Shown here piece after piece: positions 23,096-24,680 of a DNA stretch of 34,807 nucleotides (position 1 is its first letter; each line of letters starts with the position of its first letter). A program made the translations under genes and the position numbers. The notes under the pieces were generated by a model. The model did no database searches and was not told the DNA's origin. It was given only the letters and a program-made list of their open reading frames with translations. The stretch is from contig JAIQGD010000035.1 of assembly GCA_020072765.1 (NCBI GenBank), positions 1 through 34,807 of the forward strand. The letters are read 5' to 3'. Origin of the DNA: Terriglobia bacterium (GTDB lineage Bacteria; Acidobacteriota; Terriglobia; Acidiferrales; UBA7541).

Positions 23096-23896
23096 ATGCC
23101 CTTCGCAACTGTTGGGAAAAACCGCCTCTACTACCGCCTGGAGGGGCACAACGGTCTCCCCGTGCTCGTCCTCTCGCATTCCATCGGCGTGGACCACGGA
23201 CTCTGGGCCCCGCAGATGCACGACCTGCTCGCACATTTCCAAATCCTGCGCTACGACACGCGCGGGCACGGCGCCTCCGACGCGCCGCACGCGGAATACT
23301 CCATCGAAGATCTCGCCTGCGACGTTCTAGGCCTCGCCGACGCGCTCGGCATCGCCCAGTTCGCCTTCTGCGGACTCTCCCTGGGCGGCATGACCGGCCA
23401 GTGGCTCGGCATGCACGCCTCCGAGCGCCTCACCGCGCTGGTCCTCGCCAACAACTCCCCGCGCGCCGGATCGAAAGCCGCTTGGGACGACCGCCGCACC
23501 GCCGTCTTCGCCGGCGGCATGGCCTCCATCGTGGACATGGCCATGCAGCGCAATTTCCTGCCCGAGACGCTGGCGCAACGCAATCCGCACACCAGCACCC
23601 TGCGCGCCGTGTTCCTGAAAACCGATCCCGCCGGCTACGCCGGCTGCTGCTCGGCCATCCGCGACATGGACCACGTCGCGTCGCTGCGCAACATCCGCGT
23701 TCCCACGCTGGTCATCGTCGGCAACCGCGACGCCTCCACCCCCTGGGAGGGCCACGGCGAAATCCTCGCCCGCGAAATTCCCAACGCCCGCGTCGTCCGC
23801 CTCCCCTCCGCCCACCTCTCCAATATCGACTGCCCCCAACCCTTCACCGCCGCCCTCCAAGATTTCCTCCTCCCGCTCACCACACCAGCGCCGTAG
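23096..23896 (+). CDS. pcaD: 3-oxoadipate enol-lactonase
   Basis: This is a 266-residue alpha/beta hydrolase. The nucleophile elbow CGLSLGGM places S95. The acid is D212 (VGNRDASTP) and the base H240 (SAHLSN), the correct order and spacing for the fold. VLSHSIGVDHGLWAPQ and RYDTRGHGASDAP match the PcaD branch, which hydrolyses 3-oxoadipate enol-lactone to 3-oxoadipate in the beta-ketoadipate pathway. The neighbouring pcaHG genes support the call. The two intermediate enzymes, PcaB and PcaC, are not in the window; this protein has no fused C-terminal carboxymuconolactone decarboxylase domain (as in PcaL). Its last codons overlap the first unit of a repeat array. Confidence 0.88.
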   Translation: MPFATVGKNRLYYRLEGHNGLPVLVLSHSIGVDHGLWAPQMHDLLAHFQILRYDTRGHGASDAPHAEYSIEDLACDVLGLADALGIAQFAFCGLSLGGMTGQWLGMHASERLTALVLANNSPRAGSKAAWDDRRTAVFAGGMASIVDMAMQRNFLPETLAQRNPHTSTLRAVFLKTDPAGYAGCCSAIRDMDHVASLRNIRVPTLVIVGNRDASTPWEGHGEILAREIPNARVVRLPSAHLSNIDCPQPFTAALQDFLLPLTTPAP

Positions 23897-24125
23897 GCGC
23901 GCTACACGTTAGCCCAACCCGTGAGGGTTGGGCGGCCCGGGACACAATTACCCCATTCATTCCCGGCGAGCGCCGAAGGCGCGCTACACGTTAGCCCAGC
24001 CCGCAAGGGGGCTCATTCCAAATCAGCGCCGGAGGCGCGTAACACGTTAGCCCAACCCGCAAGGGTTGGGCGGGCCGCCCCGGGCCAAATCCCCTTTTTA
24101 TTCTCAACGAGCGCCGTAGGCGCGA
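23887..24125. repeat. Tandem array of REP-like double palindromes
   Basis: Four units begin at 23887, 23969, 24025 and 24110 (the last partial). Each has a gcgccg-nag-gcgc palindrome, the string acacgttagccc, and a hairpin of the cccaacccg-c/t-aagggttggg type. The array overlaps the end of pcaD and stops 22 bases before the transposase remnant. Confidence 0.85.
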
Positions 24126-24146: not shown

Positions 24147-24680
24147 CTAACCAAATACAAATTTCGGATCAAACTCCAAGCCGTGCTTTTTCAATAACGC
24201 CACAAATTCCACATCGAAACTCATCTTCCTGTGATGCGCTTCCTGATTTCGTATGTAGCGCACCACCACGGGAACAATCGACCGGCTCACGCTAAACACC
24301 CCGTATCCCTGCTGCCACGCAAATGGGTGCCCTTCCTCGTTCGCCCATCGCGACGAATTCGATTTGATCGCCAAAACCGCCTGGGCCACCGCCAACCGCG
24401 GCGGCACCTGGATGAGCAAATGCATGTGGTCCTCCATCCCGCCCACCGCGTGAACAAAAATTCCAAGCTGATGGCAAATCCCCGCCGTGTACGCCCACAT
24501 CCGCGGCTGCCACTCTCGCGCAATCGCTTGGGGGCCGCTAAGGGGCCTAAATTGCTTCCATGTCGAAGCAATTCGGAGCCTCCGTGGCGAAGCAATTTGG
24601 AGCTTCAACGTCGAATGCATTTTCACGGCAATTGGCCAGCCGTTCCGTTGGCTTCTCGCGAGGCTTGCGCGCCTCCGCAT
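24147..24680 (-). pseudogene. IS200-like / REP-associated tyrosine transposase, 5'-truncated
   Basis: Recognisable Y1-transposase sequence runs from about 24530 down to the stop at 24147. It includes QPRMWAYTAGICHQLG, the HUH metal motif EDHMHLLIQV, FAWQQGYGVFSVS and the helix VRYIRNQEAHHRKMSF carrying the catalytic tyrosine, then KKHGLEFD. The usual first ~25-30 residues (a TYxxLxYHxVFSTK-type strand) are missing. In their place the frame continues through unrelated sequence containing 24-bp tandem repeats, up to an ATG at 24680. The missing strand is part of the catalytic core, so activity is unlikely unless an internal product folds. The family uses single-strand hairpins as substrate; a hairpin array lies just beyond its stop. 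Confidence 0.75.
24550..24608. repeat. Hairpin and two 24-bp tandem repeats at the transposase break
   Basis: aattgctt (24550-24557) pairs with aagcaatt (24566-24573). Two 24-bp units (24561-24584 and 24585-24608) agree at 19 positions around gaagcaatt-c/t-ggagc. They replace the expected 5' end of the transposase gene. Confidence 0.65.

Follow-up and report, generated by a model that had tools for sequence, protein, structure and literature searches.

What are the short palindromes beside a damaged Y1 transposase gene in this Terriglobia genome, and do they belong to that gene? The window, by which we mean the whole stretch of 34,807 nt analysed here, carries four copies of the palindrome AGCGCCGNAGGCGCG (P1) between 23887 and 24124. 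They lie on the 3' side of a Y1 transposase ORF (24147-24680, minus strand), as the first-pass annotation had placed them. That annotation saw a four-unit array of REP-type substrates of the neighbouring enzyme. In our reading, the array is very probably the tandemly amplified right end of a decayed, hairpin-ended Y1 transposon of about 650 bp that belongs to TnpA-Y1 subclass 1.2. The palindromes would be the element's own ends, a layout derived from sequence comparison. The same reading includes handling as single-stranded DNA with an NTAG guide, proposed by analogy with enzymes of known biochemistry.

The array and its transposase gene

The features of the locus, in window coordinates, are the following.

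23887..23901, plus strand: P1 palindrome of unit 1, GTA loop (palindrome and genome pattern searches, DNA fold)
23909..23932, plus strand: TTAG foot and P2 hairpin of unit 1, CCCAACCC-GTGA-GGGTTGGG (P1-TAG-P2 search, DNA fold)
23969..23983, plus strand: P1 palindrome of unit 2, GAA loop (palindrome and genome pattern searches, DNA fold)
23991..24014, plus strand: TTAG foot and degenerate P2 of unit 2 (ACACGTTAGCCC string search, DNA fold)
24025..24039, plus strand: P1 palindrome of unit 3, GGA loop (palindrome and genome pattern searches, DNA fold)
24047..24070, plus strand: TTAG foot and P2 hairpin of unit 3, CCCAACCC-GCAA-GGGTTGGG (P1-TAG-P2 search, DNA fold)
24110..24124, plus strand: inner P1 at the right end of the element (the 'fourth unit'), 23 nt past the transposase stop codon
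24150..24551, minus strand: remaining transposase homology (alignment-model positions 14-147), in which DHMH, WQ and YIRNQEAHH are kept
24552..24680, minus strand: unrelated DNA, joined in frame where the N-terminus and the left end have been lost (alignment with relatives), with an imperfect 24-nt direct repeat inside

The units run in the order P1 palindrome, linker, TTAG-footed P2 hairpin. Units 1 and 3 have a perfect P2 hairpin CCCAACCC/GGGTTGGG; that of unit 2 is degenerate, with a DNA fold z score of -0.75 versus -2.8 for the other two. The string ACACGTTAGCCC accompanies the first three P1s only (23904-23915, 23986-23997 and 24042-24053), and the starts of the four P1s are 82, 56 and 85 nt apart. 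The array as such is real; its supposed four units are three, the middle one with a degenerate P2, and a lone P1 that has neither ACACGTTAGCCC nor a second hairpin. A P1-TAG-P2 pattern search of the window returns units 1 and 3, and the same pattern finds nothing in five mononucleotide shuffles of the window. Exact P1 palindromes number seven in the whole genome (3.78 Mb in 152 contigs), four of them in the array, and the reversed pattern has two matches.

Beyond the array, the genome carries one more unit, its fifth, on contig C95 (4021-4068 of locus L024). This unit occupies the spot where the conserved sequence of 16 compared relatives would continue. From the alignment, that sequence is apparently the 3' end of a gene, and the unit appears to truncate or replace the 3' end of this neighbouring gene. 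No relative has both flanks of the C95 unit contiguous as an empty site; their sequence runs on past the spot.

The transposase ORF matches the Pfam Y1_Tnp profile with 74.7 bits over profile positions 19-121. Alignment with intact relatives shows that the window protein lacks its first ~22 residues, with unrelated DNA in their place, and the gene is indeed the remnant that the first-pass annotation took it for. The lost residues take in β-strand 1 (residues 9-16 in the predicted structure of the relative L065, mean pLDDT 80.9). The best structural matches of this model are the TnpA-DNA complexes of ISDra2 and IS608, with the RAYT 4er8 weaker, and both profile and structure identify a HUH-Y1 single-domain enzyme of the IS200 fold. 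Having lost β-strand 1 and the left end, the window enzyme and its element are presumably inert, and the array is then a relic if no other enzyme works on it. The only other Y1 match in the genome (contig C49:2762-3037, L025) is weak at 23.5 bits; NHYH is present, the tyrosine motif is degraded, and by its sequence it is probably a decayed class 2 gene. The imperfect 24-nt direct repeat (GAAGCAATTYGGAGC type) lies at 24554-24600, inside the DNA that replaces the transposase N-terminus.

The motifs YIRNQEAHH, WQ and DHMH of the window protein correspond to the subclass 1.2 signature Y---Q--HH. Y---Q--HH is present in 98 of 102 related loci, and WQ in 89 of 95 full-length relatives. For subclass 1.2, the table of Quentin et al. 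2018 (PMC6006769) lists 148 aa, WQ, YIKNQKEHH, 'REP: no' and occurrence in Cyanobacteria and Bacteroidetes, and the subclass is described there as generally without typical terminal secondary structures and as not sharing IS properties. The window group resembles this published subclass in length (~148 aa), DH[IV]H, WQ, YIxNQxxHH, low copy number and divergent copies; the median length of the relatives is 149 aa, so that the length fits them and not the truncated window copy. Unlike the subclass as described there, the genes studied here are in Acidobacteriota, the majority are bounded by inverted P1-P2-P1 modules, and mobility is seen for one pair. By its protein features, compared with the published table and not with its HMM, the window enzyme fits subclass 1.2. 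The published trait of no REP or IS-like ends is contradicted here, so this filing rests on protein features, and the inverted-end layout is an addition to the published description.

Two other class assignments were considered and rejected. The window protein scores 19.3 bits with the RAYT profile, against a cut-off of 80, and five intact relatives score 24-40 bits or have no match (24-29 bits for three close intact ones). This score, together with Y---Q instead of a Y---NP-type motif, rules out a classical RAYT. TnpA-Y1 class 3 is attractive by phylum and by its 'atypical structures', and is ruled out by the Y---Q--HH motif and the NTAG foot. The NCBIfam IS200 model (cut-off 55) is passed with 65-80 bits by all five intact relatives tested, and the truncated window copy falls just under the cut-off at 51.7 bits.

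Inverted hairpin ends of intact relatives

In close relatives, inner P1s lie a few nucleotides from the start and stop codons (P1-nCAC-ATG, and TAG-GTG-n-P1 in reverse complement), nearer to the stop codon than the 23 nt of the window. About 67 bp farther out come P2 and an outer P1, and the two flanks of the gene carry them in inverted orientation to each other. Given this layout, the window array is a right end, in which the inner P1 at 24110-24124 is followed by repeated P2-P1. One relative, L066, has tandem P1-P2 copies upstream of its gene, at a spacing of 68-70 bp.

The architecture is demonstrated on a larger set by sequence comparison. Alignment A1 of ten proteins, searched in 396 genomes of the phylum at E <= 1e-20, has relatives in 80 of them, with a highest count per genome of at least 10. 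We compared 103 loci, 14 from the family search, 29 from the phylum search (window excluded) and 60 chosen by hand with multi-copy genomes favoured. One of them (L077) had no match, and 95 of the remaining 102 were retained as full-length with Y---Q--HH. A GNA/GNNA hairpin (stem of at least 5) is found in the 150-nt flank of 57/94 genes on the left and 64/94 on the right, compared with 4/91 and 2/93 in farther-out windows and 0/94 and 3/94 in block-shuffled flanks. TAG-footed hairpins are found in 45/94 left and 48/94 right flanks (3/91 and 4/93 farther out). Either hairpin type occurs on at least one side of 79 of 93 genes and on both sides of 60; under these strict criteria 14 of the 93 have neither type on either side, and at several loci no module is visible by eye.

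The ends are also specific to this enzyme group. For RAYT genes of the same genome set (29 scorable of 30 loci), either hairpin type is found on at least one side in 8/29 and on both sides in 2/29. The GNA/GNNA hairpin alone is found on either side of 72/93 genes of our group versus 6/29 RAYT genes (Fisher p 6e-8). Matches to the RAYT model (E <= 1e-10) occur in 34 of 36 Acidobacteriota genomes, up to 12 per genome, and the 29 scored mostly do not have the P1-P2 layout.

Left and right ends of an element match each other. Every left end of 93 elements was aligned with all right ends read inwards; pairs from the same element have a mean score of 23.5, compared with 7.7 for the right ends of other elements, and the own right end is top-ranked among all 93 for 54 elements. 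The inverted orientation beats the uninverted one (mean 10.0) in 77 of 93, which is not the non-inverted, one-hairpin arrangement of IS200/IS605 ends. The layout is also found outside the phylum. A plasmid tblastn search gave 532 matching records, and the best two, which were inspected, are both from Bacteroidota. The Persicobacter plasmid (L168) has P1-TAGC-P2-P1 on both sides of the gene, and the Bernardetia plasmid (L169) has repeated palindromes of another, weaker form with no clear P2. Among viral contigs, 11 stretches matched a pattern, and no relative was confirmed among them.

Stem covariation is likewise demonstrated for both hairpins. Sites were chosen by CGNAG, spacing and TAG only, giving 286 distinct sites, many of them noise. 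All four outer pairs of P1 form in 96 of the 114 sites chosen via P2 (at least 6/8 paired), compared with a mean of 18.3 and a maximum of 27 when the 3' arms are re-dealt. In the other direction, P2 is at least 7/8 paired in 89 of 155 sites chosen via a fully paired P1 (re-dealt arms: mean 10.4, maximum 18). The P1 loops of the 96 double-positive units are GGA in 37, GTA in 35, GAA in 20 and GCA in 4, although the selection required the G-N-A form, which therefore carries no independent weight. PMC4686876 reports GNA and GNNA loops in very stable DNA mini-hairpins.

The foot is better described as NTAG. The first-pass annotation had the P2 hairpin preceded by GTTA, and this tetranucleotide was replaced after comparison of 96 related units, where TAG is preceded 49 times by T, 32 times by G, 8 times by A and 7 times by C; in the window the foot is TTAG, unpaired and followed by CCC. 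GTAG itself is thus the foot in 32/96 units, so the array can no longer be set apart from the GTAG family on that account, yet each unit has two palindromes, compared with the single hairpin of GTAG REPs. The second coexisting REP family that the annotation suspected was not found, nor is it needed to explain the array. CT was considered as the cleavage dinucleotide, as suggested by the ends of L128/L129 and L099/L101, but shows no convincing enrichment beside P1: CT is next to P1 in 53/127 units versus 39/127 farther out, with a small peak at -4 (16 units).

Distribution and mobility

With up to three mismatches allowed, 27 of the 121 genomes (this one and relatives) contain the unit; the reversed pattern has very few matches. 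Exact unit matches over genome contigs fall on seven stretches, all in Acidobacteria or Candidatus Acidiferrum records. We searched the window protein in 45 genomes of the family, 25 with units and 20 of the 48 without. Strong Y1 matches (E below 1e-20) occur in 10 genomes, all among the 25 unit holders. In 8 of these 10, including the window (7 of 9 excluding it), a unit is found no more than about 300 bp from the Y1 gene, and at the other two loci, L070 and L071, palindromes with different stems are close to the gene. The genome-wide search proposed in the first-pass annotation therefore finds units that are neither unique to this locus nor free of a transposase. Units are more numerous where a close Y1 gene is present (mean 6.5 vs 1.5, with 20 of 48 unit-free family genomes sampled). 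The other 15 of the 25 unit-bearing family genomes have no close Y1 gene, and many of these assemblies are incomplete. One of the 15, G068, has a 27-residue transposase scrap between units (L077, contig C414), a further case of decay.

Mobility is seen in genome G483. Two loci on different contigs, L128 and L129, have 659 bp in common at 92% identity, and their outer flanks are unrelated. The shared stretch includes 103 bp upstream and 108 bp downstream of the ORF and ends just outside the outer P1 on both sides. This is a sharp-ended duplication, and the only pair of whole units duplicated within a genome; same-genome copies are mostly divergent. P2 of this element has eight matches in G483. 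Four are in L128 and L129, an ORF-less inverted pair on contig C40 accounts for two more, and the last two are lone modules of the right-end type, so that derivatives of the element are also demonstrated. A joined-flank search of 41 genomes of the genus for an empty site of L128 gave 14 with a match and both flanks only in G483 itself, and thus no empty site.

Proposed mechanism and competing explanations

Intact relatives have the form P1-P2-P1-transposase-P1-P2-P1 with a transposase of 147 aa, end modules that are inverted copies and inner P1s beside the start and stop codons. P1 is a short GNA/GNNA-loop hairpin, and P2 a longer hairpin behind the NTAG foot. From the biochemistry of IS608/ISDra2 and TnpA-REP, we expect that the enzyme binds the P1 and P2 hairpins as single-stranded DNA and that NTAG serves as the guide choosing the cleavage site. 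Cleavage by the tyrosine and rejoining may then excise the element or lone modules and rejoin them at replication forks. The proposal leans on GTAG-foot biochemistry as treated in PMC8266576. The window copy has lost β-strand 1 and its left end, with the right-end P1-P2 tandemly amplified to three copies.

The main competitor is a REPtron. P1-P2 would then be a family of REPs dispersed by a transposase that is domesticated and immobile, like classical RAYTs, and whose gene is itself static. Most genomes of the window's family have the gene in single copy, lone modules are scattered in genomes, inverted pairs resemble REPINs, and more units accompany a close Y1 gene, all as such a system predicts. 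We nevertheless regard it as rather unlikely: L128/L129 is a whole-element duplication within one genome, other families reach at least 10 gene copies per genome, the RAYT model score is far under its cut-off, and the GNA/GNNA hairpin is absent at 23 of 29 RAYTs of the same genome set. The first-pass annotation was right that the array is REP-like DNA that goes with the neighbouring Y1 enzyme; in place of a classical GTAG REP/RAYT pair, it appears to be the element's own inverted ends.

A classical IS200/IS605-type insertion sequence would have a single hairpin at each end, both oriented alike on the strand. All five relatives tested pass the NCBIfam IS200 model and the fold is that of IS200, but an element of this type is improbable, since the ends are mutual inverted copies with two palindromes each and an inner P1, the enzyme has Y---Q--HH and a conserved C-terminal tail instead of Y---Q alone, and same-genome copies are mostly divergent. 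The hairpins are intergenic with G+C-rich stems and could be transcription terminators or other RNA-level elements of the flanking genes that merely look like REPs. This we consider very improbable, because no T-run follows P2 directly on its 3' side in the window, in many different genomes the hairpins accompany the transposase gene on either side, and the lone C95 copy sits where relatives have the conserved 3' end of the neighbouring gene. Chance clustering of G+C-rich palindromes deserves hardly any credence: loose P1 matches are frequent in the G+C-rich window (48 vs 30 expected, 2 mismatches), but full units do not appear in shuffles, and the unit is in 27 of the 121 genomes with very few reversed-pattern matches.

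The reading as a decayed transposon end can be set beside the closest known systems. With REPtrons and RAYTs it shares a foot tetranucleotide before the hairpin (NTAG here, GTAG there), inverted pairs, lone dispersed copies and a repeat-flanked gene; it differs by two hairpins per unit (GNA/GNNA-loop P1 and P2), by Y---Q instead of Y---NP, and by a whole element that appears mobile. IS608 and ISDra2 of IS200/IS605 are alike in HUH-Y1 fold, subterminal hairpins, small size and mobility, whereas they have one same-orientation hairpin per end and not inverted triple-palindrome ends. TnpA-Y1 class 3 of Acidobacteria and Planctomycetes is similar in phylum, in the atypical secondary structures round the gene and as a possible IS/REPtron intermediate, and is different in having Y----Q, a 178-aa median and a CnGA foot, compared with Y---Q--HH and NTAG here. 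Double-palindromic TIRs are described at some Y1 genes in PMC3733652, and these TIRYTs (TIRtrons) also have a Y1 gene between inverted repeats, some with double palindromes and some in Acidobacteria. However, as counted in PMC6006769, 20 of 26 TIRYTs belong to subclass 2.1, whose inverted repeats are of the GGGGWSAS type, and the others to 2.2 and 2.5, with none in 1.2.

A more general proposal, to which we give an even chance, is that subclass 1.2 enzymes drive a third type of Y1 element, next to IS200/IS605 and REPtrons. Such elements would have inverted P1-P2-P1 triple-hairpin ends, hence exactly one end in recognised orientation per DNA strand, and an enzyme that co-evolves with both hairpins. 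Their range would include at least Acidobacteriota and Bacteroidota. The complete element would be mobile and would also give rise to REPIN-like pairs and lone modules. In the titles and abstracts of the open-access literature that we searched (subscription journals and ISfinder lay outside the search), we recognised no earlier description of hairpin ends for subclass 1.2. The ends provide a candidate DNA substrate for a transposase group that is listed without one in the reference classification, and would correct its 'no REP, not an IS' entry. Since the gene and the lone hairpin modules both appear to spread, the element may be an intermediate between mobile IS200-type elements and domesticated RAYTs. 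The hairpins are short and well defined, making cleavage directly testable in vitro. For tests of enzyme-hairpin specificity, genome G370 is well suited; it has at least six full-length subclass 1.2 genes (L078, L108-L112) with differing P1 and P2 stems.
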